Source: Candidatus Obscuribacterales bacterium (GTDB lineage: Bacteria > Cyanobacteriota > Vampirovibrionia > Obscuribacterales > Obscuribacteraceae). Taken from it: a stretch of 64,000 bases of DNA. Positions 9,452-62,614 of this stretch are shown here, piece by piece (within the stretch, counting starts at the first letter, position 1; every line of letters begins with the position of its first letter). The stretch spans positions 1-64,000 of the forward strand of contig JAKFVQ010000005.1 in the NCBI GenBank assembly GCA_021732085.1, read 5' to 3'. The position numbers and the translations under genes are program-made. The notes beneath the pieces are model-generated. The model was not told the DNA's origin and did not search any database. It was given only the letters and a program-made list of their open reading frames with translations.

Positions 9452-9456
9452 GGTTA

Positions 9457-9486: not shown

Positions 9487-9640
9487 GTGTTAGTCTTCCT
9501 GATAAGCCCAATGCGGCTGCCAGCTCAATGTGTTACAACAACTTTTTGTTGGCTTTAAAACTGAACTAAAGCAGGAAAGCAGGCTGAACTGTGCGCTGGA
9601 TACCAGCGCACAATGGGAGCGCAACTTGGCTCGCAGATCT

Positions 9641-9862
9641 TTAGTAGACGCGGAAGTCGCCCGGTCCGGCTGTCGAAATCAGGATGGTTCCGTCGCCTTC
9701 AGCTGCAACCATTTGCAGGGCCTGAATCACGGGATTGGTGGCGCGTGGTTGATCGCGAGTTTCACTCTTGATCTGTTTGGCGCGCTGAGCCACCTTCAAA
9801 ACCAACTCGTAACGGTTGGTGTGGCTGTCAAGGAGTTGGTCCAGAATGCGAGTTGTGCTCAT
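9641..9862 (-). CDS. rpoZ: RNA polymerase omega subunit
   Basis: A 73-residue protein with the omega signature NRYELVLKVAQRAKQI and NPVIQALQMVA, a small subunit that helps assemble and stabilise RNA polymerase. It lies 15 bp downstream of gmk on the same strand, the very common gmk-rpoZ order, which strongly supports the call. No strong ribosome site precedes it, so translation may be coupled to gmk. Confidence 0.9.
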   Translation of the reverse strand: MSTTRILDQLLDSHTNRYELVLKVAQRAKQIKSETRDQPRATNPVIQALQMVAAEGDGTILISTAGPGDFRVY

Positions 9863-9877
9863 TTGAATAAATGACCG

Positions 9878-10540: not shown

Positions 10541-10698
10541 GTTATTTGATCCACAAATAGTTCCAGATTTCTCCAAAGTAACTGATGATCAGCCTCTAGT
10601 AAAGAGTTATCCTAGATATAAAGGGGAAAATCTCAGGAAATTCCTGGCTCTGGTCCGTTACTATTCTCAGGTGAGCTCTCCCCGGACCTCTGGTATAT

Positions 10699-12594: not shown

Positions 12595-12609
12595 GTTTGA
12601 ATAGGTAAC

Positions 12610-14175: not shown

Positions 14176-14223
14176 TTTGAACTGGGCATATTGTCGAGAG
14201 ACTTATCGACTTGGAAACAATTC

Positions 14224-14901
14224 ATGGCCAAAGTGTTGGTAGTTGAGGATGACTTTGATGTGGCGGACGTTGTTCGTGACACGTTACGCGCAGACAATTT
14301 CGTTGTTGATGTTGCGAACAACATTCGGGATGCGAAGCATTTCTTGAGCGTCTCAAGTTACGACATTCTGGTGCTTGATTGGGAGCTTCCGGATGGCGCT
14401 GGTGTCGATCTCTGCAGGGAAGTGAAAATGACCGGCGAGCCAACCGCGATTCTTATGTTGACGGGACGCGCTTCGACAAACGACCGGGTGCAAGGTCTCG
14501 ATAGTGGTGCTGATGATTATTTGACTAAGCCGTTTGAAACGTCTGAGTTACTTGCTCGCTTGCGCAGTTTTATGCGGCGTTTATGGCAGAAGAAAGCAGA
14601 GAGTTTGAAGATTGGTTCTCTGGAGATGGAAATTCAAACGAGGAAGGTTTTTCGTGACGGCGAAGAAGTACGGCTCTTGAAGAAAGAGTTCGAGGTACTG
14701 GAATTACTGATGCGTAATCCCGGTGATCATTTCTCAACTGAATATCTACTGGATAAGCTTTGGGGGCAAGATAGCGACGCCGGTAGCGATGCGGTTTTTC
14801 AATGCATTCGCCGCTTGCGCCGAAAACTTGACAAACCTGAAAGCGATTCCTTGATCGCTTTAGATCATGGTTTCGGATACAGAATCAATTCGCAGAATTA
14901 G
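14224..14901 (+). CDS. OmpR-family response regulator
   Basis: A 225-residue two-domain regulator. The receiver starts MAKVLVVEDD, with phospho-acceptor Asp52 in ILVLDWELP and the conserved Lys in DDYLTKPF. The C-terminal winged helix (LLKKEFEVLELLMRNPGDHF, then IRRLRRKL and HGFGYRI) binds DNA. The ATG at 14224 begins exactly at the receiver domain; a TTG 11 codons upstream is in frame but unnecessary. It is probably phosphorylated by the kinase encoded immediately upstream. It resembles the regulator at 54816, sharing the unusual VLDW around the phosphorylation site. Confidence 0.92.
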   Translation: MAKVLVVEDDFDVADVVRDTLRADNFVVDVANNIRDAKHFLSVSSYDILVLDWELPDGAGVDLCREVKMTGEPTAILMLTGRASTNDRVQGLDSGADDYLTKPFETSELLARLRSFMRRLWQKKAESLKIGSLEMEIQTRKVFRDGEEVRLLKKEFEVLELLMRNPGDHFSTEYLLDKLWGQDSDAGSDAVFQCIRRLRRKLDKPESDSLIALDHGFGYRINSQN

Positions 14902-15267
14902 CACTTCTCAAAGGAGCGGAACTGCCTTGGGGACGCCTTTCTTGTGACTTCTGTGTCTAGATGAAAAGCTATTTCGGGCGAAATTTATTTGCTGCATCAA
15001 GCCTCCTGAGATCTTTAGATCTTTATTTCTTGTTACTAACTAATTGAACTTAAGGCGGCCGATTGGCCGACATCTTCTATTGGATTGCAGCATATGTGGG
15101 TGATTCTGGCGCCTTATAACCATATTCAAAAGGTCTTATTTGTATAGCCGCAGTGGCTGATGCCTAGCCTATTACGATTACCTTGATCAATCGAGCTATC
15201 TATCTTAGGATCGAATCTCCACCGACTACTTAGTATCAAACGCGGTGCTGCACGGGAAAGGCGAAAT
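14902..15267. other. Intergenic region with possible terminator and promoter
   Basis: No gene is visible in these 366 bases. At 14910-14940 AAAGG...CG can pair with CGCCTTT, followed by CTT, as a possible terminator for the response regulator. Around 15056-15070 CGGCC and GGCCG flank GATT as a short hairpin. A TTGATC and TAGGAT pair with 17-bp spacing near 15184-15212 could serve the downstream gene. Confidence 0.3.
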
Positions 15268-43305: not shown

Positions 43306-44796
43306 TTAGTCGTAACGCAATCGTCTAGAGAGGGCGGCGGAGGAGAATCCGCCAATCGCGCGCCGGAGTTTGGCTTGTTCGATGTTGTAGCTGTAGATAG
43401 CGTTGACGTAATTCCTCAACGCTATCGTCAAGGCTGACTGCGCTTGGATAACGTCAATATTGATACCGATTCCAGATTTTAGGCGGTCCTCGGCTAATTT
43501 GAGCTGTTCTTGCGCTTGAGTCGCGGCTTCCTTTGCGATGCTGATATTCGCCTCGTAAGCCAGGCAGTTGTCGTACGATCGACGCACGTCGGAACGAACC
43601 TGGAGCTCAACATTTTTCAAGGCATACTGATCGGAGCGTGCCGTTGCAAGACCAGCTGCAAAATTCGGAATAATCGGGGTGCCGAGATTGTTCAACTGCC
43701 AGCTGATTTGTAGGTTGCGCTGAATTCCAATCAATTCATTGGGCGTGTTGTTGCCGGGAAAAAAGCTGCCTGATGTAACCACATAAGAAGCCGTCGGAAT
43801 CAGTGGTGTGAGCGCTTGTCCCGACTGCGCTACGTCAAGGCGAACTTGATTTTTGAGTTTTGCTATTTCGGGGCGCTGCTGCAATGCCATATAAACGAGC
43901 ATATCGACTGGCAGTTTAGGATCCACCAGAGTCGTCTTTTCCAACGGCCGGCATTTTGGCAATATGTAGCAGGACAGTGGCAAATTCAAAGTCACGGCAA
44001 GGTTGATCGCTGAAACACGCGCTTGCACCTGTGAAAGAACTAGTTGCTGTCGATCTTGTGCTAGCTGAGTTTGGGCTTGTAGTAATTGCAACTTTGTTCC
44101 CATCCCGCTTTCCAGCAAGCCCCGGTTAAGCTCCATGATCCCTCTGGAATTTTCTACAACGATGTCACTCACGTGCAAAAGCGAGATATCTCGACAGAGC
44201 GTGAAGTAGTTATTCGAAGCTTCAAACAGGGTGTCTTGCAAACTTGTTTTAACGGCAGCAGCGAATACTCGGGAACGAAAGAAATTCGTCATCATATTGA
44301 CGAACGTAGTTCCGCCCGTCGAAAGTGTCACTCCATAGGTGTAATAGCGTTCTCGTTGGATAGGAAAATTTGTTCCGACAAGCGGGTTCGCGGAACCGGG
44401 AACAGGATCTTGAAATAGCCCATAGTTGGTTCCCGCTTCGCCGTAATTAAATCCATTCATTGCCGCAACGCTACCAATGAAAGCATAAGTTGCAGATTTG
44501 CCTAGCCAACGTGACTGCATGTATGCCAGGTTCCTGGTGGCGGCAAGGTTCAGTACCCGCTCCAGGTTGAGACGTTCCTGCGTCTTTGCGTCAATGAAAA
44601 TCGGAGGGAGCGGGACCCTAAACTTCTCACGTTGCTTGATGTTGCTAACGTCGAGGTTCACTCTCGCTGTCAGTGGTGTCAAGCCGATAGTTGGGAGGTC
44701 TTTTGCATCCGCGGCGTATGTCGCCGGCGTGCAGGTGTATGCCAAGGTGGCGCCCGTCAGATATGTAAGAAGCCTAAATGTCAGTTCTGGACGCAC
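43306..44796 (-). CDS. TolC-like outer-membrane efflux protein
   Basis: A 496-residue protein with a signal peptide (LTYLTGATLAYTCTPATYA) and the two-repeat helical TolC architecture, for example GTKLQLLQAQTQLAQDRQQL and IGINIDVIQAQSALTIALRN with the N-V-I/L-x-A-Q pattern. It would form the outer-membrane duct of the type I secretion system encoded just upstream. The GTG start at 44796 lies 30 bp after the HlyD gene's stop, so it is the last gene of the transporter operon. Confidence 0.88.
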   Translation of the reverse strand: MRPELTFRLLTYLTGATLAYTCTPATYAADAKDLPTIGLTPLTARVNLDVSNIKQREKFRVPLPPIFIDAKTQERLNLERVLNLAATRNLAYMQSRWLGKSATYAFIGSVAAMNGFNYGEAGTNYGLFQDPVPGSANPLVGTNFPIQRERYYTYGVTLSTGGTTFVNMMTNFFRSRVFAAAVKTSLQDTLFEASNNYFTLCRDISLLHVSDIVVENSRGIMELNRGLLESGMGTKLQLLQAQTQLAQDRQQLVLSQVQARVSAINLAVTLNLPLSCYILPKCRPLEKTTLVDPKLPVDMLVYMALQQRPEIAKLKNQVRLDVAQSGQALTPLIPTASYVVTSGSFFPGNNTPNELIGIQRNLQISWQLNNLGTPIIPNFAAGLATARSDQYALKNVELQVRSDVRRSYDNCLAYEANISIAKEAATQAQEQLKLAEDRLKSGIGINIDVIQAQSALTIALRNYVNAIYSYNIEQAKLRRAIGGFSSAALSRRLRYD

Positions 44797-44826
44797 TGTA
44801 CACCAATGAACATCAACAGATAGATT

Positions 44827-46536
44827 TTAGCTTGTGATACTGGAATTGGTGCACTTGACGAGTTGATTTGCGTTCTTATTAGAGACTCTTTGAATAGACT
44901 TGTCTTCAAAAACTTTCATCAATGGTTCAAAAAGCAGGCCAAGCATACTGCGTTTGCGTAACACGATTGCCGCTTGCACCTGCAGCCCTGGCTTAAGTTC
45001 AATCTGTTTATGGTTGTATTTTATAAAAGGCTGATCCGGCCGGATGGTGACCTTATATGCTGAAATTTTCTTTTGACCTTCGATAACTTCTTCGGGGTAG
45101 TCACCGACACGCAAGACTTTTCCTTTTATTACACCAAACTCCGCACACGGGTAAGCGTCGATGCTCAGAGTCGCAGTTTGACCTGGCTGCAAAAATCCTA
45201 CATCAATGTTGTTAACAGTGGCTCTTAAAATGAGGTTATTGTCCGAGGGGACTAGTGTTAAAAGCGTCTGTCCGCGTGTCACGACTTCGCCCGGCAGAAG
45301 ATAAAAAGGATCGGACACCGTTCCGTCCACTGGTGCTTTTATGAACTTTTCTGCAAGAATTGCTTGCAAGACCTCTATTGAATCCTTGCATTCATCAATC
45401 TTTCGCTGCAGGGTGCTTATTTCCGTTCGCTCCTTTGAGAAATGACTGCTCGCGTGGTATGAGGCAATTTCAAAATCCGCTTGCTTATTTTCGAGCGATC
45501 GCACTGTCTGATTCTCTGACAAAGGAACCGAAGAAATTTGTACGTTCGACTGCATCAATGAAGCACCGAGATCCGCTTGTGCAGCGTTATATGCAAAGTT
45601 GGATGAGTCCAACTCTAGCTTTGCCGCCTTCAATTGTCTTTCCATTTCTTCTATTTGCAATTTCTGTTGGTCAACGGAAAATTCGCGCTGGTGCAGGTAG
45701 TTTTGAACTTCGAGAAATTTGACCTCAGACGCTACGCCAAGCTGTTTGCCTCTTTCATAAATTGCCATTTCTTTTCTGGCATCATCGAGTCCTTCTTGTA
45801 ATTCGTTTAGCTCTATGCGGCTCTTTTCTAGGGCAGCTGAAAGTGATTCGATCTTAGCCGTGAGTTTCTTCTTTTCGGCGTTTCGCTCGACCACCTTCTT
45901 TCCGATCGAGTCTGCAAAAGCCTGCTTGGCAGTTTGTAATTTTTGTTTCTTGGACTGGAGCACTGACATCTCTGGAGAGATGCCCTTTAGTTTTTCGTTT
46001 CGCGCCGTTGTCATGTCGTAGGATGCAGAGTCCAGAGACTTTCTTGATGCATAAAGCGTCCCAGCGATTCGTTCTGCTTCTGGTAAGTCGAGAATGTCTT
46101 TTCCGTTATATTTTGGATTCTCAATGACGCGTGCCAGGCCGTCTCTTGCATTCTCATGTTGTTTCAATTGAATTTGTAGCATCGAAAGCTCTTGTTGTTT
46201 TTTTCGCAACTCCGCCTCTGCTCTGACTGTATTAAGTATGATCAGCGTGTCTCCAGCCTTAACCTGTTGGCCATCGCGCACTTTGTATTGATGTATCGTG
46301 CCGTCGGATGTAGCTTTGATTTGTTGTATTCTCGTTATTGGTTCGAGCTGCCCTTTAGCCTCAGCGCACACATCACTTTCAGAAAATGCAGCCCACGTTC
46401 CAAAAATAATTAGAACGATTGCCAGAGCATAGAGCCCCTTTTGCGCGGAGCTTCCATACTTTTCAAAGGTGGCCATTTGTAGCTGCTCGGAAACTTGAGA
46501 AGCTTGTTCGGCTGAGGAAAAATCATGTAGTGGCAC
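44827..46536 (-). CDS. HlyD-family membrane fusion protein (first copy)
   Basis: A 569-residue adaptor: a short cytoplasmic N-terminus, one TM at about 35-52 (GLYALAIVLIIFGTWAAF), a split biotinyl-lipoyl domain (IKATSDGTIHQYKVRDGQQV), a long coiled coil, then FIKAPVDGTVSDPFYLLPGE and a C-terminal beta-barrel. It bridges the inner-membrane ABC transporter and TolC. The start is GTG 46536, 29 bp after the ABC gene. A partial paralogue of the HlyD at 50365. Confidence 0.92.
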   Translation of the reverse strand: MPLHDFSSAEQASQVSEQLQMATFEKYGSSAQKGLYALAIVLIIFGTWAAFSESDVCAEAKGQLEPITRIQQIKATSDGTIHQYKVRDGQQVKAGDTLIILNTVRAEAELRKKQQELSMLQIQLKQHENARDGLARVIENPKYNGKDILDLPEAERIAGTLYASRKSLDSASYDMTTARNEKLKGISPEMSVLQSKKQKLQTAKQAFADSIGKKVVERNAEKKKLTAKIESLSAALEKSRIELNELQEGLDDARKEMAIYERGKQLGVASEVKFLEVQNYLHQREFSVDQQKLQIEEMERQLKAAKLELDSSNFAYNAAQADLGASLMQSNVQISSVPLSENQTVRSLENKQADFEIASYHASSHFSKERTEISTLQRKIDECKDSIEVLQAILAEKFIKAPVDGTVSDPFYLLPGEVVTRGQTLLTLVPSDNNLILRATVNNIDVGFLQPGQTATLSIDAYPCAEFGVIKGKVLRVGDYPEEVIEGQKKISAYKVTIRPDQPFIKYNHKQIELKPGLQVQAAIVLRKRSMLGLLFEPLMKVFEDKSIQRVSNKNANQLVKCTNSSITS

Positions 46537-46565
46537 TGCGATTGACCCTGTTAGTTCTGTCCGTC

Positions 46566-49500
46566 CTAGATCAATTGTTGCGAGCAGAGATTGGAGTACA
46601 ATCCCTTCTTTTGAAGTAGCGACTCATGGGTTCCTGTTTCTACAATTTGGCCTTGATTCATTACCACGATCAGGTCAGCGCTCTTAATTGTCGACAGCCT
46701 GTGCGCGATTACAATCAGCGTTCGTCCTTTGCGTATTTCCTCCACCGACGATTGGATCTGCCGCTCTGATTCACTGTCAAGAGCGCTTGTGGCCTCATCA
46801 AAGATCAATATTCTTGGCCGGTGCAAAATGGCGCGGGCGATGGCAAGTCGCTGTCTCTCACCCCCGGATAGGTTGTAGCCGCCTTCACTCAAGTAGGTAT
46901 CATATCCACTTCCCATGTTCATTATCTTTTCGTGAATACCTGCTTGTTTTGCGGCTTTAATGATGTCGTCCAATGGTGCGTCCGGAGCGTAGAAGGCGAT
47001 GTTCTCGCGCACAGTACCCGTAAAGAAAAACTCTTGTTGAGCAACTACTCCAATTCTCTTGCGCAGATCCGATAATTCGATTTGCGTGATATCGACGTCG
47101 TCTATAAGGACATTGCCTGACGTCGGTAAGTATAAACCTTGAATCAAACGTGAAAGAGTCGTTTTACCGCAACCTGCGCGGCCCACGATAGCGATCATTT
47201 GATTGGGTTGCATACGCAGCGAAACATTGAGAAGGGTGTTTTTACCGGCATGTTCGTTATAGCGAAAGGTCACGTTTCTGAATTCAACGAATCCTCTCAG
47301 GTCGGGCATGCGTGTTTTCTGACCGGCTTGCTCTGGAGCGGCTCTGAATACATCGCCCAAGCGCTCGACGGAAATATTCACACTTTGCACCTGTTGCCAG
47401 ATCGAAATCAGGCGTAAGACTGGGTCAACCGCCATGCCGGCAATCATATTTGCAGCCATATACTGACCGACGGTAAACGACTTTGAGATGACTAGATTCG
47501 CGCCCAACCACATTAGCAATACGCGCCCAAGAAGGTGCACCAGTCCGGTTACCTGGTTGTAACCGTTGTAAGCGAGCTGCTGTTTGAATTGCACGCTCAG
47601 CTTATCGACAAAGAGTGATTCCCACTTCCAACGCGTTCTGTTTTCTACGGAAGCTGACTTGATTTTTTCGATGCCGTGAACTGTTTCTATTACACACGAG
47701 TCGTTTGCCACCGTCTTTTTGAAGATCTCGTTGCTATAGCCACGCAAAAGTGGAGTGTATGCCGAAACGACTCCCATCAACAGTGCTATATACACAAGAG
47801 TTGCTAAGCCGAAGGACCAATTGTAATAAAAAAGCACGACCAAATAAATGACAGCCATCACCGAATCCAACAGGACGGTGACAGTGCTTCCAGAAAGGAA
47901 GGCTGTTATTCGTGCATTCTCATTGAATCTGGCTAACACGTCGCCAGAGCTGCGCTGCTCAAAGTATTTGAAGGGTAGGCTGAGCAGGTGTTTGAAAAAC
48001 TGCACAAACAATGCGTGATCTATTTTTGTAGACAGTGTTGAAATCAAAATTCCTCGGGCGAAAGTCAGACCAGCCTGGAAGCAGCTAATTATGATCAGCC
48101 CAACAAGCAGCATGTTTAGCATCGAAACGTCTTCGTGGACGATTACGCGATCAATAATTGTTTGGGAGAAAAAGGGCGTGATGATCATTAGCGCCTGATA
48201 AATTATGCCGGCGACAAGAACATCACGAAGTTGGGAGTGATAGGGTTTCAACAGCGGAAGAAGAATGGTCAGCGGATTCTTAGCTCCGGGTGCACGTTTG
48301 AGGTCTACCGTTGGCACCAGTTCCAGTGCGCTTCGAGAAAAACATTCCGAAAATTCCTGACGGCTGACCGTTCTCATTCCTTCTGCCGGGTCTGCTATTA
48401 GTGCTTCTTTCTTAGTGATTTTGTACAGCACCACAAAGTGATTGTTCTTCCAAAAACAGATAAGGGGCAGTTTCGCATTAAGCAAACCTTCATAGGTTCC
48501 ACTTATCCCTCTAGCCATGAAACCTAAGTGCTCTGCTGTATCGGCCAATGCAAGAAAGCTGGTACCTTCGATACTTACTCCAGCTCTCTCCCGCAAGTCG
48601 TTTATGTCGAGTCTCTTGCCATAGAAAAGTGCCACCATGGCAAGACAAGTAATACCGCAATCCATCTGGCTTTGCTGCAGGATGAAAGGATACTGATGCA
48701 GGAGTCGGTTGACGCGGGCGGAAAATGGGTCTTCGCCGATATCTGAATCTGGCGGAGGGTTTTGTGCTGTGCTAGCAGAAGGCGCGCGATGGACATTCTC
48801 AACCCTTGTGCTTGCAGAGTTCCGGCTTTCTTCTTCATTGATACCAATTGCATTGGCGATAGCCTGCGCGATTTCCGGACTGTGATTTAGGAGGTCGTCG
48901 TACTGTTCTTCGCTGATGGACAGCACTTGTACAGGAGAGTGCGCTCTGAAGTTCTTGCCGCTGTTTTTGAAAGGACCGAATTCTCTAGGTATGAAATAGT
49001 CACCGGAACCTAAAGTTATTGTTCCGGAACTAGTTGAGCATTCGACAGCACCACGGAAAATAATATATAGACCGTTCAAAGATTCTGGACTGCTTTTGCC
49101 TAGGTCCAGATTTCCCGGGTTCAAATAGCGAGTAATTGCTTTCAGCTTTGCAGTTGCCGTCCCGCGAAAGGTTTCTAGTTTCCTGAGAAAACCAAAACAC
49201 TCCCACTGCACTTGTATAGCTTTAAAGTGTTCAGCAAATTTTGAGTTTTTTGCAGCCAGCTCATTACAAACAGCGTGCTCGATCAGCAGAACAAGAGATT
49301 CCTCTGATGCCCTTGCTAAGACATGGCCTTGCCCATTAAGGGGCAACCAATAGTCGCACCAAGTGTCGCCAATTAAATCGAGACTGCAAATGTTGCTTTC
49401 GTCACCAGATGGAAAACGTTGTAACAGTCGAACGCGGCCCGAAGCCAGAATCTTCTGCTTATTTGCATTGGATTCGGCAATGAGATCGCCAAGTCCGAGT

Positions 49501-49619
49501 TGCATCTGCTCGCTGGATTGTAGAAAGTGAGCAAACTCGTCATCGCTCAAGAAGCTGCAGAGCTCAGATCTCCGTAGCTTTGTTATAAGGTCCGGCTTTA
49601 TACCTAAATCAAGATCCAT
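46566..49619 (-). CDS. Peptidase-containing ABC transporter with two cNMP-binding-like domains
   Basis: About 1017 residues. Two tandem cyclic-nucleotide-binding-like folds come first (SFLSDDEFAHFLQSSEQMQL to about residue 125, and LYIIFRGAVECSTSSGTITL to about 245). A C39 peptidase with a complete triad follows: Cys in QQSQMDCGITCLAMVALFYG, His in NNHFVVLY, Asp in LIADPAEGM. Then come a six-TM ABC membrane domain and an NBD with Walker A VGRAGCGKTT, signature LSGGERQRLAIARA and Walker B ILIFDEATSALD. C39 domains cut leaders after double glycine during export. ATG 49619 is chosen because a TATAAT promoter lies at 49719-49724; the frame is open upstream. Confidence 0.92.
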   Translation of the reverse strand: MDLDLGIKPDLITKLRRSELCSFLSDDEFAHFLQSSEQMQLGLGDLIAESNANKQKILASGRVRLLQRFPSGDESNICSLDLIGDTWCDYWLPLNGQGHVLARASEESLVLLIEHAVCNELAAKNSKFAEHFKAIQVQWECFGFLRKLETFRGTATAKLKAITRYLNPGNLDLGKSSPESLNGLYIIFRGAVECSTSSGTITLGSGDYFIPREFGPFKNSGKNFRAHSPVQVLSISEEQYDDLLNHSPEIAQAIANAIGINEEESRNSASTRVENVHRAPSASTAQNPPPDSDIGEDPFSARVNRLLHQYPFILQQSQMDCGITCLAMVALFYGKRLDINDLRERAGVSIEGTSFLALADTAEHLGFMARGISGTYEGLLNAKLPLICFWKNNHFVVLYKITKKEALIADPAEGMRTVSRQEFSECFSRSALELVPTVDLKRAPGAKNPLTILLPLLKPYHSQLRDVLVAGIIYQALMIITPFFSQTIIDRVIVHEDVSMLNMLLVGLIIISCFQAGLTFARGILISTLSTKIDHALFVQFFKHLLSLPFKYFEQRSSGDVLARFNENARITAFLSGSTVTVLLDSVMAVIYLVVLFYYNWSFGLATLVYIALLMGVVSAYTPLLRGYSNEIFKKTVANDSCVIETVHGIEKIKSASVENRTRWKWESLFVDKLSVQFKQQLAYNGYNQVTGLVHLLGRVLLMWLGANLVISKSFTVGQYMAANMIAGMAVDPVLRLISIWQQVQSVNISVERLGDVFRAAPEQAGQKTRMPDLRGFVEFRNVTFRYNEHAGKNTLLNVSLRMQPNQMIAIVGRAGCGKTTLSRLIQGLYLPTSGNVLIDDVDITQIELSDLRKRIGVVAQQEFFFTGTVRENIAFYAPDAPLDDIIKAAKQAGIHEKIMNMGSGYDTYLSEGGYNLSGGERQRLAIARAILHRPRILIFDEATSALDSESERQIQSSVEEIRKGRTLIVIAHRLSTIKSADLIVVMNQGQIVETGTHESLLQKKGLYSNLCSQQLI

Positions 49620-49718
49620 TAGTTTATGGATTTCCGACAGGGCTTGATTTTGGTTCTCATGGTTTCTACTGCCGGAGGAAGGAAGTGTGCTGTCAAGGTA
49701 TGAGTTTAGCACTTTCAC

Positions 49719-49749
49719 ATTATAGATGAGGAAAGGAGCTTGTATGCAA
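49719..49749 (-). promoter_or_regulatory. Promoter of the ABC-HlyD-TolC operon
   Basis: On the minus strand TATAAT (49724-49719) is preceded by TTGCAT (49749-49744) with 19-bp spacing. It lies about 100 bp before the chosen ABC start and inside the upstream open frame, which is why a start upstream of it was rejected. Confidence 0.5.
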
Positions 49750-49806
49750 GTAAATCCGGCAGCCGATTGAGGTATACTTTCTCGCGGCGCTTTTCGGTGG
49801 CAGGTA

Positions 49807-50358
49807 ATGATAGTGGTCAAAGAATTGACTGTGTTTGATCAACTTCGAAATTTGCTTGCCCCCTCCCTTGTAATTTGCTCTGTCATTCTGTCGAGCTCGC
49901 TGTCATCCATGGCGAGAGAGGAAGTTGCCGCGCAACCAGTTTTGAGGGATAGCCTGGCAAGTCCCACGCCACAAAAGCGTGGACGTTCCAATGACAAGTT
50001 GGTGCAGTGGGAGAGCAAAAAGTATCCGCTCATTTTTTGGAAGGCACATCCTGTGACGGTGGTTCCCGGTGCTCTGGGGCAGCTGACTACAAGCTTTGAC
50101 CCAAAGGAAGATGTTCTTCGCCGAGGTACCTTGAAGTACTCAATTAAGCTCACTGAATTGCCGGCAGCACTGCCAGGTATAGCCGTTCAATTGCTCGATG
50201 CAAATGGCTTCAAATTGAGCGAATTCGAAATTCTGAGGGATCAATTTCATCCAGTCTCAGGAAGCACAATAATCGAAGCTGCGGGCGATACGCCTTGCAA
50301 TAAATCAGACTATCAACACGCGAGAGATTACGTGATCAAGCAGTGCGCACAGTATTGA
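49807..50358 (+). CDS. Exported protein of unknown function in the secretion locus
   Basis: A 183-residue protein with a signal-peptide-like N-terminus (LLAPSLVICSVILSSSLSS, then MAREE), a basic linker (PTPQKRGRSNDK) and a beta-rich domain (YPLIFWKAHPVTVVPGALGQ, YSIKLTELPAALPGIAVQLL). No family is recognised. It is divergent from the ABC gene and ends 6 bp from the convergent second HlyD, so it sits inside the secretion cluster on the opposite strand. It may be a periplasmic accessory factor. The start is ATG 49807 or GTG 49813. Confidence 0.7.
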   Translation: MIVVKELTVFDQLRNLLAPSLVICSVILSSSLSSMAREEVAAQPVLRDSLASPTPQKRGRSNDKLVQWESKKYPLIFWKAHPVTVVPGALGQLTTSFDPKEDVLRRGTLKYSIKLTELPAALPGIAVQLLDANGFKLSEFEILRDQFHPVSGSTIIEAAGDTPCNKSDYQHARDYVIKQCAQY

Positions 50359-50364
50359 TCAAGG

Positions 50365-52026
50365 TCACGCTTTGAAGTGAGCGTATTGAAGTTTCAGTAG
50401 CGGTTCTAGAATGCTAATCAGGAGGCGCTTCCTGCGCAGAACTATTTCCGCTTCAACTTGAAGTCCTTTTCTGAGGGGGATTTTTTTGCCTCTGCAAAAT
50501 ATCCAATTTCGTTCTGGTGCCAGCAAGACTTTGAATGAACCTGCGTACTCTTTTTCTTGACTGGGAAATTTATCAATCAGTTTGATGACAGCTGGAATGG
50601 TGCCGTACTGCGTATGAGGATATGCAGGGAACTGCATTTTCACTTGCTCATTCTGGTTTAGGAAAGCAACCTGATCATTTGGTACATGTAGGCATGCAAC
50701 CAGCTGCTCGTGATTTGGCACGATCGTCAACAAATCTTGCCCATACTGTACTACTTCACCGTGCCCTTGAACATGCAGTAGAGCCACTGTTCCATCGACT
50801 GGCGCTTTCAAGCTTCCCTTTAATAAAGTGTGGTCTTCGGATGCGACGGAAGCTTTTAGTTGTTCTATTTGCTTCGACAAATTACTGATCTCAATGGTTT
50901 CGCTAGCTTGAGTGGATTGCGCTCCACGTAAAGCCACTTGAAACGCGGTTTGCGCATCACTGAGATTCCTCTCAGAGGATCTTAAGCGCATGTTTACTTC
51001 TGCTTCCGAAGCTGCTATTTCGCTCACGCCGGCTTTCAGTTGAGAGGATTGAATGGAGTTCTTTGATTGCAACTGAGCTAATTCGTGCATTGTGGTGGCA
51101 AGCTGTCCCTCAAACTCGCGTTGCTTTGCTTCTGCCACTGTAAGCTCGTGTTTCCTGTCTTCGACGCGCATTTTTGCGTCCAGGCATTCCGTTTTTGAAG
51201 ACGCTCCTGTTGTGAATGCTTTTTCGTAGGCGGCTAATTGTTTTTGAGCGCATTCAAGGGAATATCGTCTTTGCTCGACGCTTGCTTTCTGCAAACTTAT
51301 TTGCCGAGTGAGCGTTGCCGTTTGACTTTCTAAGCTATCTTGTTCGATTTGGAATTGCTTGCGTCTCTGTTCCAGCGCCTGTTCCTTAAAACGTCGTTGC
51401 TCTGTGATGTGCTTCTGCTGTGAGACAAGCACAGCTGCTTCTGTAATATTGGATTTCGCCAGTTTTGTCATCTTCATGTCTAGAAGAGCGCGGTCCAGCC
51501 GTTGCTGCGCGGCGTAGACATCCCCGATCGCTCGAGAGACAGCAGTAACGCTCGAGTGATCCGGTGATAAGGCGTGTGTATCCTTCAAGTAATTTGTCAG
51601 GGCCTGTAAGGCGTGTTGATGTCTGGCAAGTTGTTGATCGGCATCGCTTAACTCGTGCTTGTACTTCTCGAGTTCCGCCCGGTACGCTTTTGTATCCAGC
51701 TCCATAAGAGTTTGTCCCTGCTTTACGGAGTCTCCCGATTTGATCGAAATTGATAATACTTTGCTATCAAACGGCGCTCGAATCGGTTGCACTTCTTCAG
51801 ATGGTATCAGTTGTCCTGGCGCTTGAGCGATTTCTTCTAACTCCGTGAACCATGACCAGATCAGCATTCCCACTACTAAGAGCAGAGTCATGATCGTTAT
51901 TTTGTGTCCAAGCTCGTTATTGAATTCTACGCGCTCCACAGCCTTATCGGTTGAAGGTATTTCGCTTGACCCAAGTTTGTCCGGTGCCACCGCCAAGAGG
52001 TTTGATTTATATTCTTCTCGGTTCAT
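50365..52026 (-). CDS. HlyD-family membrane fusion protein (second copy)
   Basis: A 553-residue adaptor with one TM at about 44-60 (ITIMTLLLVVGMLIWSWF), lipoyl-like segments (IRAPFDSKVLSISIKSGDSV and LKAPVDGTVALLHVQGHGEV), a long coiled coil between them and a C-terminal barrel. It is 4 bp behind the parvulin gene, with GGAG 9 nt before its ATG. Having a second HlyD in one locus suggests either a heteromeric adaptor ring or a second transporter elsewhere. Confidence 0.92.
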   Translation of the reverse strand: MNREEYKSNLLAVAPDKLGSSEIPSTDKAVERVEFNNELGHKITIMTLLLVVGMLIWSWFTELEEIAQAPGQLIPSEEVQPIRAPFDSKVLSISIKSGDSVKQGQTLMELDTKAYRAELEKYKHELSDADQQLARHQHALQALTNYLKDTHALSPDHSSVTAVSRAIGDVYAAQQRLDRALLDMKMTKLAKSNITEAAVLVSQQKHITEQRRFKEQALEQRRKQFQIEQDSLESQTATLTRQISLQKASVEQRRYSLECAQKQLAAYEKAFTTGASSKTECLDAKMRVEDRKHELTVAEAKQREFEGQLATTMHELAQLQSKNSIQSSQLKAGVSEIAASEAEVNMRLRSSERNLSDAQTAFQVALRGAQSTQASETIEISNLSKQIEQLKASVASEDHTLLKGSLKAPVDGTVALLHVQGHGEVVQYGQDLLTIVPNHEQLVACLHVPNDQVAFLNQNEQVKMQFPAYPHTQYGTIPAVIKLIDKFPSQEKEYAGSFKVLLAPERNWIFCRGKKIPLRKGLQVEAEIVLRRKRLLISILEPLLKLQYAHFKA

Positions 52027-52030
52027 TCTG

Positions 52031-52810
52031 CTAAATCTCCAGACTCAGCGACTGCTTCGATTTGAATTCCTGCAACCATTGCTTGAATAAGCCAATCTCA
52101 ATCTCTTCGCGGACTTCTGAAGTGAGCGTGGGCGTGTTTTTATTTTCTACAAAATAGACATTGAATGAATCGCGTTCTTTGACCGGCCCTACGATCGTGC
52201 CCTCTGGGGCCTTGCTCACCAGGTCTTGCAGGTGCACTGTGAGGCTGCGCATTTTTAGATTGCCCAAGTAGCCGCATGACTTGGCTGTTGCCGCATCTGT
52301 GCTGTATTTGCGTGCATAATCGAAGAAGCTTGCTCCTTCCTGAATGGAGCTGATAATTTCTCGAGCGACTTCTTCTTTCTTCAGGGCGATTTTGTATAGA
52401 TCCACAGTCACAAAGTCGACCTGTGAATAGGCGAATTGTTCTTCTATTCGTTTCTCGAACAAAACTGTCTTCAGCTTTTGAAGGCGAGCATCATAGCTGC
52501 ACATAATCAAGAAGTCGTTTTCGTCCATATGTTGGTCTTCCAACCAACGATGGGTATCAGGTCCAGTCAATAATCCGTGCTGGTTTCTGAATTTGGTAAT
52601 CTGCTCATAGACCTCTTTTTGTGTTACTTCGATTTTGAAGCTCTCAAAAGCCTGTTCAAGTACGAAGCTGTCCAGCATGTCTTGAATCGTCTGCCAACTC
52701 TTTTGCTGGATTAATCGCTCGATTATGTCCATGGCTGAGATGCTTCGAGCCCCGATTTTGGCAATCAGAGCGGAATCTGGGGTCTCGGTCTCTGGCAAAC
52801 CGTTGGTCAA
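52031..52810 (-). CDS. Parvulin-type (SurA/PpiC-like) peptidyl-prolyl isomerase without signal peptide
   Basis: About 259 residues. A SurA-N-like helical part (RSISAMDIIERLIQQKSWQT, FKIEVTQKEVYEQITKF) is followed by a parvulin domain (DLYKIALKKEEVAREIISSI, then GASFFDYARKYSTD, CGYLGNLKMRSL, GTIVGPVKERDSFNVYFVEN). No signal peptide or membrane helix is present in any start version, so it should act in the cytoplasm. TTG 52810 is preferred, with AGGAAG 10 nt upstream and TATAAT at 52846-52841; an upstream TTG at 52936 has no site. It is coupled to the second HlyD gene. Confidence 0.85.
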   Translation of the reverse strand: MTNGLPETETPDSALIAKIGARSISAMDIIERLIQQKSWQTIQDMLDSFVLEQAFESFKIEVTQKEVYEQITKFRNQHGLLTGPDTHRWLEDQHMDENDFLIMCSYDARLQKLKTVLFEKRIEEQFAYSQVDFVTVDLYKIALKKEEVAREIISSIQEGASFFDYARKYSTDAATAKSCGYLGNLKMRSLTVHLQDLVSKAPEGTIVGPVKERDSFNVYFVENKNTPTLTSEVREEIEIGLFKQWLQEFKSKQSLSLEI

Positions 52811-53134
52811 GTAAGGGCTACTTCCTGGCTGAGTTTCTTCATTATAGTGGTGGTTTTGGGCAATTAAGAGACTGTTTCGCTTGCTTTCGGAGGCTGAAAA
52901 TCCGCGAATGACTCTTAGACTCGCAATTCCCGGCAATTTTTGCCTCTTGAAATCCGCTCACGAGCCCCTCACACTTGAAAACTAGTCTAGTAATGCAAGC
53001 GGGAATAGAAAGGTTCAATTCAATGTTCAGTCTATTTGCCAAGCAACAACAAGTCTACGCCCTCAAAACCGACGCAAGTTTGCTAGCTGCTCGCACAAAT
53101 GCCTGACCGCTCATGCATTCAGGAGGATACGAAA

Positions 53135-54619
53135 ATGAGACGCATTACAGCAACAAAATTCGACCACATGCAAGCCCTCGTACTGAAAGAACTGGAAGTA
53201 ATCAAAGCTCAGACCGCCGAAAACATGATGCAATCGATTGGCGGTGCTCAACACTATTCGATAGCTCAACTGGAAAAGATGGGTTCTGAAGGTTTACTCG
53301 CTGGAATGAATTTGACCGGATACAACTTAGACAGTATCAACCTTGCCGGTGACAATCTCAAAGGAACCAATTTCACAGGCGACCAAATGATTGGAGCTCA
53401 GTTAAATGGCGCTGACATGCAAGGTGCAGAAATCAGCCATGCTGATTTGACATGCTCTAACCTTAGTGGCGCCAACCTTAGTGGTGATGCTTTCTCTGGT
53501 ACCACGCTAATTACTGCCAACCTCGAGGGAGCGAATCTTCAAGGAATATCGGCAACTGGCGCTAACTTCGAATCTGCTATTACGAGTTCAACAACGAATC
53601 TTGAACACGCACAGCTCTCTGGTGATACCTTCAGCGGTGACATGGGCGCAGATTATACATCCTCAAGCTTCAGCAATTGCCACTTTGAGCAAGGTGTTCA
53701 ACTTTCAGGTAACTTCTCCTCGGCAAACATGCAAGGTGCCCAATTAAGTGGGTCAATAATGGATGGCAATTTCCACGGCGCCAATATGCAAGGAATTGAC
53801 CTGTCTAATGCAAGCATCTCGGTAGCCAATTTCAGTGGCGCAAATCTTGAAAGCGCTAATTTCTCCGGAGCAAATGGTGATGCTAACTTCGGTGGAGCAG
53901 ATCTCGATCATGCAAACATGAGTGGTGCTAATTTGATGGGCTCAAGTCTTTCCGGTGCCCATGTGGTTGATACGAATCTAACAAACACCTCGCTGCAAGA
54001 TGTGAATGCTAGCAACGTCGACTTTACGAAAGCCGTTATGGATGGAACAAGCTTCTACGGCGCAAATCTAAGCGGTGACAATTTCTCGAACACAAATTTG
54101 TCAAAGGACGGCGTCAACCTCCAGTGGGCTTCCGGCACCGATGTAAACTTCTCCGGAGCTACGATGACAGGTATGAACCTCACAAACTTGGCTTTAACCA
54201 ACTCCAACTTGGATAATGCTGACATGGACGGAGTACACGGTAAGGTTATCATCGAAGGTTGCCATTTCGATGGAGCTGACCTCAGCAACGCAGATCTTGC
54301 AGGTTCTGTGATTATGAGCTCACACTTCGATGGAGCAAACCTGGAGAATGCAAACTTCAGTGGTATCAACCAAGGTAGCATGACGGCACCTGATGATTCT
54401 TTCAAGGATGCCGACCTGCAACATGCAAACTTCGATGGCGCTGAGCTTTCCGGATCCAACATGAACGGAGCTAACGCACAGTATGCCAACTTTGATTACT
54501 CCGACCTTACCAATGTAACTTGGAGGGAAGCCAATGTTACATGCGCAACCTTCGAGGGTGCTGCAGGTAACATCCCATGGGTTAAGGAAGCCATGTTCCA
54601 AGAACTCGAAGCTGTCTAG
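53135..54619 (+). CDS. Pentapeptide-repeat protein with possible double-glycine leader
   Basis: A 494-residue protein. Residues 1-55 are a helical leader-like segment (LVLKELEVIKAQTAENMMQS) ending IGGAQHYS, with Gly36-Gly37. From about residue 60 to 480 it is an almost unbroken pentapeptide repeat A-(N/D)-(L/F)-x-G (SGANLSGDAFSG, FSGANLESANFSGA), predicted to fold as a right-handed quadrilateral beta-helix. There is no Sec signal. AGGAGG at 53121-53126 gives very strong translation initiation. Its position beside a C39-peptidase ABC transporter makes it the prime candidate substrate; this is inference. Confidence 0.88.
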   Translation: MRRITATKFDHMQALVLKELEVIKAQTAENMMQSIGGAQHYSIAQLEKMGSEGLLAGMNLTGYNLDSINLAGDNLKGTNFTGDQMIGAQLNGADMQGAEISHADLTCSNLSGANLSGDAFSGTTLITANLEGANLQGISATGANFESAITSSTTNLEHAQLSGDTFSGDMGADYTSSSFSNCHFEQGVQLSGNFSSANMQGAQLSGSIMDGNFHGANMQGIDLSNASISVANFSGANLESANFSGANGDANFGGADLDHANMSGANLMGSSLSGAHVVDTNLTNTSLQDVNASNVDFTKAVMDGTSFYGANLSGDNFSNTNLSKDGVNLQWASGTDVNFSGATMTGMNLTNLALTNSNLDNADMDGVHGKVIIEGCHFDGADLSNADLAGSVIMSSHFDGANLENANFSGINQGSMTAPDDSFKDADLQHANFDGAELSGSNMNGANAQYANFDYSDLTNVTWREANVTCATFEGAAGNIPWVKEAMFQELEAV

Positions 54620-58675: not shown

Positions 58676-60562
58676 TTACTCTTCGCTTTGCGGCTCCGTC
58701 TGGAGGTAGGATTTGAGGACCTGTTCCTCGGCGTTGATCATTTTCTGATGGAACTGGTTCATTGTTTCCAGATAACTTGAAAGCACGCATTCTGTTCTAT
58801 ATATAGGATCGGATTGGAGATCGGCGCTATTGGATTCTGCTGCCCGGGCGCCGGTCTTGGCTGCTATGGGCGTAAGACGTTCGCTGCGTTCTGCCTTTTG
58901 CATTCTTGGTTCAGCTGCCGTCGCTGCCGAGTTCGGTGAAAGCTTAGAGATCGGCTTCAAATAGCTAGGTAGTTCCGGATTTCGGTTCGCTGTTTGCTTC
59001 GATTTATTCTGAAGCTTAGCGAGCAAGTCCGTTTCCTTGTCTAAATTCAGTTCGGGGTAACGCAACGATAATCGAATTGCGCGCTTATTTTTTACAGGTT
59101 CATTTAGCTCTTCGTTTTGCGGAGCCTTCGATGGATATTCTTCCAAGACCGCATGTGCATTCACGCCCCCGAATCCGAAAGCACTAATGGCAGCGCGCCT
59201 GGGCTCTTTCGTGTTAGTCGATATCTCCCAAGCTTTTGTTGTCGAATTCACGTAACATGGCGATTTTTTCCAGTCGATTTGTGTGTTGGCGGTCTGCACA
59301 TTCAGTGTTGGTGGAAGTGTCTTGAAATAAAGGGCAAGTGCTGTTTTTATTACTCCTGCCATACCGCTTGCTGCTTGCGTGTGACCGATCATCGATTTCA
59401 CAGAGCCGAGAGCGCACCACGCTTTCTCTACGGTTTCATCTGCTGCAAATATCCGCTCGATGGCTAACATTTCTGCCAAATCCCCAGCGCGAGTGCCGGT
59501 GCCATGAGCTTCCAGCAGCGTTACGGTACGAGGAGATATCCCCGCCATTTCGTAAGCACGGCTCATCGCCAAGGTTTCGCCTTCAACATTCGGCGCAAGT
59601 GAGCTGCCTGACCGTCCGTCGCTGGAGCATCCGATTCCTGTAAGGACTGCGTAGATACGATTGCCGTCGCGCTCTGCATCATCCAGGCGCTTAAGAACGA
59701 TCATGCCGACGCCTTCACCGAGTATGGTGCCATCCGCGTTATCATCAAACGGTCTAATAACACCTGAATTCGAAAGAGCTCCCAGTCCGCAGAACATTTG
59801 ATAGAAATATGGGCTCGAATTGATGTGCACGCCGCCGGCTATCGCGATGTCGCTTTGCCCGCTTAATAGTCCTTGTACGGCTATCTCGACAGCTACCAGA
59901 GAGGATGCGCAGGCCGCATCGAGGATCAGATTGCGTCCCTTGAATCCGAGTTTTGCTGCGATGCGTCCTGAAATAATGTTCGGCATTACGGCCGGAATTG
60001 TATCTGCGTTGCATTGCTGCAAACTTGAGTGAAGCGCCGATTCGATTTCTTCTAAATCGCTTTCTGCAAGCTGAGGTGAAATCGCGCGTAATATGCTGAT
60101 GACTTGCTCGACTGTTTGTCCATGTTGAATTAGATTCATCGATCCAATTCCAGGAGCGGCAGTCCTTCCGAGGATCATGTCAGCTTTTGCGCCATCAAAG
60201 GTTTTGTGGCCGTAACCAGCGTCCTGTAGTGCTTCTGCCGCTGCTCGCAGTGCGAGGAATTGATCAGGGTCTGATCCCTTCAATCCCGCGGGCATGATTC
60301 CGAATTCGAGCGGATCGAAGTCGGCAAATTCTGTGATGAAACCACCGTTGGTGCAATATATTTTGCCAAACTGATTAGAGTTCTTTTTCCTGTAGTGCTC
60401 GGTATCCCACTCTTCGGGACCGGCTTCCCTAATTGAATCGACGCCATTGATAATGTTATTCCAGAACGCTTTTAGGTTTGGCGCTCCAGGAAAGATGCAC
60501 GACATGCCAACGATAGCTACTGAGGGCTTCCGTTGCTTTTCCGTTTCACCGGATTTCTTCAT
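58676..60562 (-). CDS. Beta-ketoacyl synthase (PfaA/PKS-type)
   Basis: A 628-residue protein. The KS domain (residues about 12-480) has catalytic Cys218 in DAACASSLVAVE, His in LLEAHGTGTRAGD and His in MIGHTQAASGMAGV; the start VAIVGMSCIFPGAPNL is typical of polyketide and PUFA/heterocyst-glycolipid-type synthases. The C-terminal ~150 residues are a variable helical tail with no acyltransferase or carrier domain. Its ATG overlaps the stop of the ACP-dehydratase gene (4 bases), so the two are translated together. It would condense acyl units on the partner carrier domain. Confidence 0.92.
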   Translation of the reverse strand: MKKSGETEKQRKPSVAIVGMSCIFPGAPNLKAFWNNIINGVDSIREAGPEEWDTEHYRKKNSNQFGKIYCTNGGFITEFADFDPLEFGIMPAGLKGSDPDQFLALRAAAEALQDAGYGHKTFDGAKADMILGRTAAPGIGSMNLIQHGQTVEQVISILRAISPQLAESDLEEIESALHSSLQQCNADTIPAVMPNIISGRIAAKLGFKGRNLILDAACASSLVAVEIAVQGLLSGQSDIAIAGGVHINSSPYFYQMFCGLGALSNSGVIRPFDDNADGTILGEGVGMIVLKRLDDAERDGNRIYAVLTGIGCSSDGRSGSSLAPNVEGETLAMSRAYEMAGISPRTVTLLEAHGTGTRAGDLAEMLAIERIFAADETVEKAWCALGSVKSMIGHTQAASGMAGVIKTALALYFKTLPPTLNVQTANTQIDWKKSPCYVNSTTKAWEISTNTKEPRRAAISAFGFGGVNAHAVLEEYPSKAPQNEELNEPVKNKRAIRLSLRYPELNLDKETDLLAKLQNKSKQTANRNPELPSYLKPISKLSPNSAATAAEPRMQKAERSERLTPIAAKTGARAAESNSADLQSDPIYRTECVLSSYLETMNQFHQKMINAEEQVLKSYLQTEPQSEE

Positions 60563-62451
60563 GCTACCGGTTCCGATTCGCGCGACGAAAGGCGGTTCAG
60601 AGCTTTGCTTCCAATGCCCTTCAGACCCTCAATTGAAAGTACAAGCTCGTTATCTTCCGAGTAGATTCCGAGATCGCATTTGATTTCTAGACCCTTTGTT
60701 TCAGGTGAGATCATTACTAGCGAATTGAACGTCTTTCCGTTTAATGGACCATGTATCTTCAATTGCTTGAATCCGGCGGGAAGTACCGTGACATCCATAT
60801 TGTGTCGAGCCCAAACTCCTGCCAGCTGCATGGAGCTATCCAAGAGCGTTGGATTAATAAGCCATTCAGCGGCGCCAGGATTGGCAAGCAAATTCGAAAG
60901 CGCCAATGGTTGAATGGATCCAGCCACCCCGTTTGAACCCATAGTGCTTACGGCTGTGATGCCTTGGAAGAGCGGGCCGTGAAACATGAAATTCTGGTAG
61001 ACGTCGGCTGCGCTGGGCAATTCAGTTGGGCTGAGCGGTTCCAGAATTTGCACTCCTCTGAAATTCGGAGGAAGCGCAGCGATACCTTTTTGCTTGGCTG
61101 TCAGCGCAATTGGTGTCGAGCTAGGGACCAGAACTATGCTTGCTCTGAAGTGTGTTCTGCGAACCTTGCCGCTAGTTTGCACTGAAGCTTTAACAGTGAT
61201 GCTGTCATCTGATCGTTCAGTCGTCTCAACTAGAACATGAATGTCGGTATTCTTCGAATCGAATACAATGCCCGCAAGAATCTCCAGGTCTTTCACTTCT
61301 GAAATCCTGTGGGTTGGCTGAGAGGATGTTGATGCCTCCAACATCAATTCGAGCGCGACCGCCATTGGCATGACAGGAACACCGTCAAAGAGGTGATCGT
61401 TGAGGAATCGATCCTCTTCACAGTTCATAGATATGGTGAACAGTGTTGAATTTTGTGTGAGCTTTTCTGTTCTTGCTGACTTCAGCCTGGCACCGGCTGC
61501 GGTGCCTGTTGACGTACCGGAAGTCACATTGGACAACTTTCCATTTCCATTGGAGCCGTTTGAATAAGTTCCGTTATCGCCGTTTGTGGAGGCGTTGCTT
61601 GGGCTTCCATTTGAACCACTTGCTGCCACTATGACGCTTGCCGTTGGCCCACCGGGCTGGCTAGTTGCGTTGTTGCTTTCGATTGTTGGATTCGGTTTAT
61701 TAGTGCTGAATTCAGTTCGGATCCAGTCCATAATTCCCTGCAACGTTTTAACGGTCGCTAACTGTTCAATACCGGATTCCAGTGACAGTTGGCTGGATTC
61801 GGGAAGCATCTTTCTAAATCCATTGAGAATCTCAACGCGTTTGATTGAATCTATCCCCAGGTCAGCCTCTAAATCTAGTGTAGGCTCAAGCATTTCGGGC
61901 GGGTAGCCAGTTCTTTGGCTGACTATGTCGATCAGGGCTGTAATCAGTTCTTCCGGATTAGCGGTTGCTTCCGAGTTAGAGCTGGCTGCATTTCCATTAA
62001 CTGTTGTCTGAGTTGTTTGAACTGCGCTTGCTTGCGTTTGCATCGCTGCCTGTTGCTGAGCTTGCATCGCTGCCTGTTGCTGAGCTTGCATCGCTGCTTG
62101 TTGCTGAGCTTGCATCGCTGCTTGTTGTTGAGCTTGCATCGTTGCTTGTTGCTGAGCTTGCATCGCGGCTTGTTGTTGCGCTTGCATTGCCGCAAAAACC
62201 TCAGGGGAGAGATTTGTCCCTGCAGAAAGCTGCTGTACGTTTAGAAGTGGATGGCTGAGCGTGTTTTCAAGTGGCGCTGGGTAGCTCCCTGCTTCGGCTC
62301 CGAGGCTGGCAGATCCCGTCAGATAAGCCATCATGACCCTTTGCTGGCTCTCGAGAAAGCCCAGAGTCAGTGCTAGTGAGGTCCTTTGAAACTCAAGCAA
62401 GACTCGCTCGCGAGAATTCAGTGGTGGATTAGCTTTTGGGTTTGAGGACAT
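60559..62451 (-). CDS. Acyl carrier-dehydratase protein of a split PKS/PUFA-like synthase
   Basis: About 630 residues: a helical N-terminus (NSRERVLLEFQRTSLALTLG), a Gln/Ala/Met linker from a 24-bp tandem repeat, then one ACP domain with the phosphopantetheine Ser in EADLGIDSIKRVEIL. A Ser/Asn/Gly-rich linker is followed by a hot-dog dehydratase domain with active-site His in NDHLFDGVPVMPMAVALELM and Asp in NPTLLDSSMQLAG. The D-S-I-K ACP motif is the PfaA/HglE type. No KR, ER or AT is visible here; others may lie upstream or elsewhere. The ATG 62451 is preferred over a TTG nine codons earlier. Confidence 0.9.
   Translation of the reverse strand: MSSNPKANPPLNSRERVLLEFQRTSLALTLGFLESQQRVMMAYLTGSASLGAEAGSYPAPLENTLSHPLLNVQQLSAGTNLSPEVFAAMQAQQQAAMQAQQQATMQAQQQAAMQAQQQAAMQAQQQAAMQAQQQAAMQTQASAVQTTQTTVNGNAASSNSEATANPEELITALIDIVSQRTGYPPEMLEPTLDLEADLGIDSIKRVEILNGFRKMLPESSQLSLESGIEQLATVKTLQGIMDWIRTEFSTNKPNPTIESNNATSQPGGPTASVIVAASGSNGSPSNASTNGDNGTYSNGSNGNGKLSNVTSGTSTGTAAGARLKSARTEKLTQNSTLFTISMNCEEDRFLNDHLFDGVPVMPMAVALELMLEASTSSQPTHRISEVKDLEILAGIVFDSKNTDIHVLVETTERSDDSITVKASVQTSGKVRRTHFRASIVLVPSSTPIALTAKQKGIAALPPNFRGVQILEPLSPTELPSAADVYQNFMFHGPLFQGITAVSTMGSNGVAGSIQPLALSNLLANPGAAEWLINPTLLDSSMQLAGVWARHNMDVTVLPAGFKQLKIHGPLNGKTFNSLVMISPETKGLEIKCDLGIYSEDNELVLSIEGLKGIGSKALNRLSSRESEPVA
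62037..62193. repeat. 24-bp tandem repeat in the carrier protein gene
   Basis: About six and a half copies of a 24-bp unit recur with period 24 (CTTGCAT at 62061, 62085, 62109, 62133, 62157, 62181). They encode repeats of AAMQAQQQ in the ACP-dehydratase protein. Single-base differences between units are mostly silent or Ala/Thr changes. Copy number is likely to vary between strains. Confidence 0.9.
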
Positions 62452-62614
62452 GGATATGCGCCCTGCCGGATGGTACAAGAAGTGTCAAGTATAGCCGTTC
62501 TTGGGTCTCTTGCTATTTAACGCCTCTTAAGCTGGAACCCGAACCGCTCATCCATTGGTCGCTCTGGGATTACGCCGGGAAAAAACTGTTTACAATCAAT
62601 AATAGGAAGTTCAG

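Follow-up and report, generated by a model that had tools for sequence, protein, structure and literature searches.

Organization and conservation of the export locus

The locus between nucleotides 43306 and 54619 raises the question of what a C39-peptidase type I exporter carries when its neighborhood includes a gene for a large pentapeptide-repeat protein. Our sequence analysis indicates that it probably encodes an active, tripartite C39 exporter for which a leader serves as the address and various large, acidic repeat proteins are interchangeable cargo. The window is the whole 64,000-nucleotide stretch of DNA that was analyzed, and it belongs to contig 14 of an Obscuribacterales MAG of 4.79 Mb that is ~70% complete (G000). 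ORF translations and Pfam/NCBIfam scans of the window confirmed all genes of the locus, on the strands and with the spacing given by an earlier sequence-only reading. The minus strand encodes a TolC-family outer-membrane channel (43306-44796; Pfam OEP, E = 2.7e-30), the periplasmic adaptor HlyD1 (44827-46536; HlyD_3, 1.2e-20; TIGR01843, 1.4e-57, which is below the cut-off of that model), the ABC exporter (46566-49619), a second adaptor, HlyD2 (50365-52026; HlyD_3, 6.4e-19), and a parvulin-type peptidyl-prolyl isomerase (52031-52936; Rotamase_3, 2.5e-9, with a weak TIGR04500 match). The gaps are 29 bp between the ABC and HlyD1 genes, 30 bp between the HlyD1 and TolC genes, and 4 bp between the parvulin and HlyD2 genes. 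An ABC transporter, an HlyD adaptor, and TolC are encoded together, as in type I secretion. The plus strand encodes a 183-residue protein (49807-50358) and the pentapeptide-repeat protein, whose gene is transcribed divergently from the parvulin gene.

We defined system I as a parvulin, a C39-ABC transporter, and an HlyD, plus a linked TolC and a further HlyD of a distinct kind. System I is present in exactly six of 50 family genomes (G000, G003, G013, G024, G030, and G073), which represent three genera. Full-length orthologues of HlyD2, the diagnostic component, are found in the same six of the 50. The gene order varies, and the set stays together in contigs that are long enough to show it. 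Judged by its conservation, the layout is not chance, because the parvulin, HlyD2, ABC, HlyD1, and TolC genes lie together in L021-L024, which come from three genera and share 33-73% identity. HlyD1 is kept in relatives, and TolC is adjacent in four system I relatives at 54-73% identity. Conserved co-occurrence, which the sequence-only reading had proposed as a check on all six genes, holds for these five, but the leader-encoding genes nearby in G024, G030, and G013 are not pentapeptide genes. Of 20 loci from photosynthetic cyanobacteria that were selected for the similarity of their parvulins, ~19 have the wider trio of parvulin, C39-ABC, and HlyD. The window's own genome contains a second such set (L027; contig 8, 35000-54900) with a parvulin (9358-10176, plus strand), an ABC transporter (10169-13222, plus strand), and an HlyD (13267-15048, minus strand). 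This set has relatives in L025, L026, L028, and L029, and no clear substrate lies beside it in L027.

The N-termini of relatives indicate that the parvulin probably starts ~45 codons downstream of the listed TTG. It has no evident signal peptide, so the cytoplasmic location proposed earlier fits. The idea that it is a holder specific to an unusually large protein was abandoned, because the related parvulins beside a transporter and HlyD in the photosynthetic loci accompany identified precursors that are small. The N-terminus of the 183-residue protein is hydrophobic, as is typical of signal peptides, and the protein matched neither Pfam nor NCBIfam models. Its fold was poorly predicted (pLDDT 58), and Foldseek returned nothing significant. 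Close orthologues lie by the system in G003 and G024. The protein was rejected as an essential part of the system because it is near the system in only three genomes and has distant paralogues elsewhere, some of them in genomes without the export system. Together with members in L114, L115, and L117-L119, it belongs to a signal-peptide or membrane-anchored family with a conserved QLLDxxGFKL core, sometimes with several members per genome.

The C39 peptidase domain is intact

The ABC exporter has the domain order of a PCAT with an N-terminal addition: a cNMP-binding-like domain precedes the C39 peptidase, transmembrane (TMD), and nucleotide-binding (NBD) domains (Pfam Peptidase_C39, ABC_membrane, and ABC_tran; the cNMP match is below the Pfam cut-off). 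The ORF extends to 49820. Judging by the starts of relatives, which lie close to 49619, the gene probably begins at that position and not at the upstream TTG. The C39 domain (48309-48692; Pfam, 9.4e-37) was aligned to the structures of PCAT1, LahT, and ComA. The catalytic Cys, His, and Asp and the oxyanion Gln are all present, and these residues are invariant in five system I transporters; the second tandem ABC of G013 is the exception in system I. The alignment and the Pfam scans bear out the earlier view of the locus as a complete machine, a type I system whose C39 peptidase proves to be intact. The fusion of a TMD and an NBD to the C39 domain is a PCAT characteristic. A PCAT also has a cognate substrate with a cleavable Gly-Gly leader, and the window encodes a candidate for such a leader in linkage with the transporter gene. 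The closest overall NCBIfam model is TIGR01846, below its cut-off. An NHLP/NHLM bacteriocin system was considered and rejected, with TIGR03796 scoring 569.9 bits against a cut-off of 853.3 and TIGR03794 scoring 67 bits against 156.2. The tandem ABC genes of G013 (L024:1767-7788, minus strand) encode one intact and one degenerate C39 domain, which suggests a heterodimeric exporter.

The pentapeptide protein carries a leader found on other large proteins

The pentapeptide ORF spans 53099-54619. Translation very probably starts at the ATG at 53135 rather than at 53099 because this codon sits 8 nt after an exact AGGAGG ribosome-binding site (53121-53126), read directly from the sequence. Leader searches identified the first 37 residues, MRRITATKFDHMQALVLKELEVIKAQTAENMMQSIGG (53135-53245), as a double-glycine leader with a predicted cut after the second Gly. 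Its start is slightly basic. The amphipathic helix that comes next bears Leu (-18), Ile (-15), and Met (-7), and the Gly-Gly occupies -2/-1. The mature candidate cargo (53246-54619) is a 457-residue, 47-kDa pentapeptide-repeat protein with a pI of 4.1 (Pfam PF00805, 1.5e-64). A single-sequence structure model predicts that residues 5-34 form a helix and that a break, modeled with low confidence, falls at the Gly-Gly (36-37); a short capping helix and then a beta-helix follow, and the nearest folds are pentapeptide structures. The at least eight tandem repeats and the predicted beta-helix place the protein in the pentapeptide family.

The large repeat proteins of the relatives have the N-terminal pattern [ED]L..[LIV].......M...[VIL]GG in common. 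An ungapped alignment of 21 leaders conserves Glu/Asp at -19, Leu at -18, Leu/Ile/Val at -15, Met at -7, Val/Leu/Ile at -3, and the Gly-Gly, which is often followed by Ala. The window protein matches every conserved position. The conserved hydrophobic residue is at -3 rather than at the textbook -4, and this counts against the preferred reading of the locus. A basic stretch precedes the leader core in most large cargos. The leader proteins beside or between the export genes of relatives are TPR-like or all-alpha repeat proteins of 530-1,500 residues. Three large leader genes adjoin the system in G024 (836 and 1,503 residues and one that is partial in the retrieved stretch), a 644-residue leader gene lies between HlyD2 and parvulin in G030, and an 843-residue leader gene adjoins the export cluster in G013. 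The 25-kb system contig of G003 contains no leader gene, another point against that reading, and profile searches of this genome found TPR-like and all-alpha leader proteins as well as two pentapeptide proteins. One of the two, C587, also has the first ~45 residues past the Gly-Gly in common with the window protein. Profile searches found several further leader proteins in G013 and two in G073.

The occurrence of the same double-glycine leader on large proteins beside orthologous machines makes the window pentapeptide protein very probably a cargo of the C39 exporter, and to this extent the earlier proposal of a pentapeptide substrate stands. A dedicated pentapeptide exporter was rejected because no pentapeptide gene with the leader lies near the system in three relatives. 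By the earlier reading's own refuting condition of relatives without the pentapeptide gene, a one-to-one pairing of transporter and pentapeptide protein fails, with G024, G030, and G013 keeping the machine and TPR-like or alpha-repeat leader proteins nearby instead. The shared leader, not the fold, therefore appears to define the cargo.

Specificity of the leader

All six genomes with system I, and none of the other 44, have long ORFs that match the leader strongly (E < 1e-5). The one such match outside the system I genomes is a 66-residue peptide in G035. This frame (L029:4801-4998, plus strand; MTIRYSDLTILETVNEEEMSIVVGG followed by RHGADD...) is a small double-glycine peptide by a related smaller system. 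The probability of the co-occurrence would be 1 in C(50,6), or ~6e-8, if the genomes were independent, a figure not to be taken at face value because the genomes are related, forming pairs within three genera, and also supplied the training sequences of the profile.

A profile held out from the window is the fairer test. The window leader scored 1.4e-7 with a leader profile that included its own sequence, which is circular. The held-out profile used only ten leaders, all of them from proteins of G003 and G013 other than pentapeptide proteins. It recovered leaders of G024 and G073 (1e-6 to 1e-9), a pentapeptide protein of G003 (0.0065), and the G030 leader (only 0.748). The window pentapeptide protein scored 0.054 and was the sole match with E <= 1 in its own 4.8-Mb genome. 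It outranked every match in the 44 genomes without system I, the best of which was a partial match at 0.186. An E-value of 0.054 is weak taken alone, and it becomes persuasive because the single genome-wide match is the gene adjoining the transporter. Across 386 genomes of the phylum, a leader profile matched nothing besides the window. When the window's genus was left out of the training set, a plain HMMER profile neither gave the window leader significance nor singled it out, so this profile was judged too weak, and a weighted matrix was used together with the held-out genome-scale profile. The matrix was trained outside the window's genus and applied to 206,119 23-mers from 339 kb. Besides the six training sites, only the small Gly-Gly peptide of L029 (21.0 bits) and the window leader (11.2 bits) exceeded 8 bits. 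Held-out matrix scores of the window protein's relatives vary, and C587 scored -2.6.

These data bear on the explanation that the pentapeptide protein is a cytoplasmic neighbor, either topoisomerase-modulating or HetL-like, with a coincidental Gly-Gly, and that the machine exports something else. Most known functional pentapeptide proteins (Qnr, MfpA, and HetL) are cytoplasmic, the gene is divergent from the parvulin gene, and the leave-out HMM score is weak. However, the window leader is the only genome-wide match and stands above all genomes without the system, and the AGGAGG-ATG marks the leader start. The leader also occurs on the two G003 pentapeptide proteins but is absent from the other pentapeptide-rich ORFs retrieved (L123, L124, L125, L127, and L137). 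A cytoplasmic neighbor is thus unlikely.

Candidate cargos are large and acidic

The candidate cargos are encoded by frames of 341-1,505 residues and have molecular weights of 32-152 kDa where complete; sizes of ORFs that are partial in the retrieved stretches were taken from the open frames in the leader profile search. The mature large cargos have pI values of 4.1-4.9 and contain 0-0.9% Cys compared to 1.15% in the window's long ORFs. In the window genome, G024, G030, and G073, every strong leader match is a long ORF. The only short leader ORFs are a 78-residue frame that looks like a broken duplicate and a 154-residue frame in G013, and a contig-edge fragment in G003. A short leader protein with 47 residues past the Gly-Gly is encoded on contig 120 of G013 (L077), followed in another frame by an HTH/peptidase-like ORF; it is possibly a small Gly-Gly peptide or an unrelated gene. 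The MAGs are fragmentary, and further cargos may be missed in the 70%-complete G000.

The size data also address the idea that the true substrates are small Gly-Gly peptides, as in other cyanobacteria, with the large leader proteins being secondary or hijackers. In photosynthetic cyanobacteria, the same trio goes with small precursors (PMC3140520), and the G035 peptide lies beside a related smaller system. Candidate precursors of ~67-117 residues in the photosynthetic loci start with MxISDLNxLE...GG, a shorter leader of the same style; manual listing in twelve of these loci found small precursors in several that the strict Gly-Gly pattern had missed. A pattern search of the window and the system I loci, however, found no convincing small Gly-Gly peptide near the system, and the strong matches in four system I genomes are all long. 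Small peptides as the true substrates are quite improbable.

Comparison with known systems

The nearest known relatives are the long-type C39 clusters of cyanobacterial groups I and II described by Wang et al. in 2011, in which a long-type transporter is combined with HlyD and SurA (PMC3140520). The window system resembles them in its C39-ABC with a ~300-residue N-terminal CAP_ED/cNMP extension (subject to the sub-threshold Pfam match), its HlyD, its SurA-like parvulin, and its double-glycine precursors. It differs in having two HlyDs and a dedicated TolC; its leader is also longer, and in most cases the first residues are basic. The precursors of Wang et al. are 28-164 residues long, a range exceeded by the candidate cargos, and only small ORFs and intergenic regions were inspected in that survey (PMC3140520). 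The likeness to the PCATs PCAT1, ComA, LahT, and CvaB lies in the active C39 domain, the helical leader ending in Gly-Gly, the TMD, and the NBD. The leader register is different, with the ComA consensus having Leu at -12, Glu at -8, and Leu at -7. Active-C39 exporters are said to carry small cargo of ~10 kDa at most, and large cargo is assigned to systems of the RTX type, whose C39 domains are inactive (PMC8277102). The candidate cargos lie beyond this ceiling, which is a generalization in that work and not a strict definition of a PCAT. The locus is like the RTX HlyB/HlyD/TolC route in offering a tripartite path for large, acidic, Cys-poor proteins. An RTX type I system was nevertheless rejected, since the cargo has no GGxGxD repeats and the C39 domain is intact; no RTX motifs were found in the mature large cargos, and no C-terminal uncleaved signal was found at the window locus.

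HetC of Nostoc PCC 7120 has the same cNMP-C39-ABC architecture, proven protease activity, and ppGpp binding (PMC10986499); unlike the window exporter, it acts in heterocyst differentiation and its substrate is thought to be a peptide. Synechococcus elongatus exports small Gly-Gly proteins that are required for biofilm, and their export needs the C39 protein PteB (PMC4997328). Large double-glycine cargo is rare but not unheard of, with one partial precedent in the open-access literature (PMC11879956). Treponema denticola TDE_0422 and TDE_0424, encoded with tepA1-B1, are double-glycine proteins of 607-614 residues (66 kDa) by a bacteriocin-type ABC transporter, and they were reported in the culture supernatant with bands of about 61 kDa, their transporter dependence not being shown there (PMC11879956). 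Their leader Gly-Gly is at residues 17-18, no parvulin is reported, and the cargo type and phylum are different.

Proposed mechanism

The gene content, conserved linkage, intact active-site residues, and shared leader are read from sequence, and a route for the cargo can be proposed from them. The pentapeptide protein would be made with its 37-residue leader. By analogy with PCATs, the C39 domain would dock the leader helix and cut after the Gly-Gly, and the ABC domains, the two HlyDs, and TolC would take the remainder outside in one ATP-driven step (PMC8277102). HlyD1 and HlyD2 may act as a mixed or an alternative adaptor. The parvulin probably keeps the cytoplasmic cargo unfolded or isomerized, and the cNMP-like domain may gate the transporter, as suggested by ppGpp binding to HetC (PMC10986499). 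A beta-helix may be hard to thread, which counts against this route. The demands of threading folded repeats and the ability of C39 proteases to work outside one-step export, as the periplasmic FapD does (PMC5557850), could favor a leader that is docked and cut while the large protein is retained at the inner side or periplasm with C39 as a processing switch, but this is very improbable given that TolC and two HlyDs accompany the transporter wherever a locus is complete enough to show it and that acidic, Cys-poor cargo suits extracellular proteins.

One-step export addressed by the leader is the preferred reading. The leader would serve as the address and the cargo would be interchangeable, because in related strains this machine and leader go with different large, acidic repeat proteins. 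On balance, we lean towards a modular secreted set in which one leader addresses unrelated folds of ~30-150 kDa (pentapeptide beta-helix, TPR-like alpha-solenoid, and all-alpha) to a parvulin-assisted channel with two HlyDs, past the stated size limit of active-C39 exporters. If so, the leader and not size sets the rule, and a short cleavable N-terminal tag can direct repeat proteins, even very large ones, into a one-step channel. This view is tempered by the kinship of the machine to a known cyanobacterial cluster and by the T. denticola precedent. The candidate cargos are repeat-rich and acidic and have no recognized catalytic domain, which would suit a function on the surface or in a matrix; they may instead act like bacteriocins. 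If the preferred reading is right, the leader pattern could be used to find more cargo where surveys covered only small ORFs (PMC3140520), and it would suggest what uncultured non-photosynthetic relatives of cyanobacteria put outside their cells.

Elsewhere in the window, an ORF at 60559-62478 (minus strand) encodes a run of ~7 MQAQQQA-type repeats before an apparent acyl-carrier domain and adjoins a ketosynthase-like ORF at 58676-60562.
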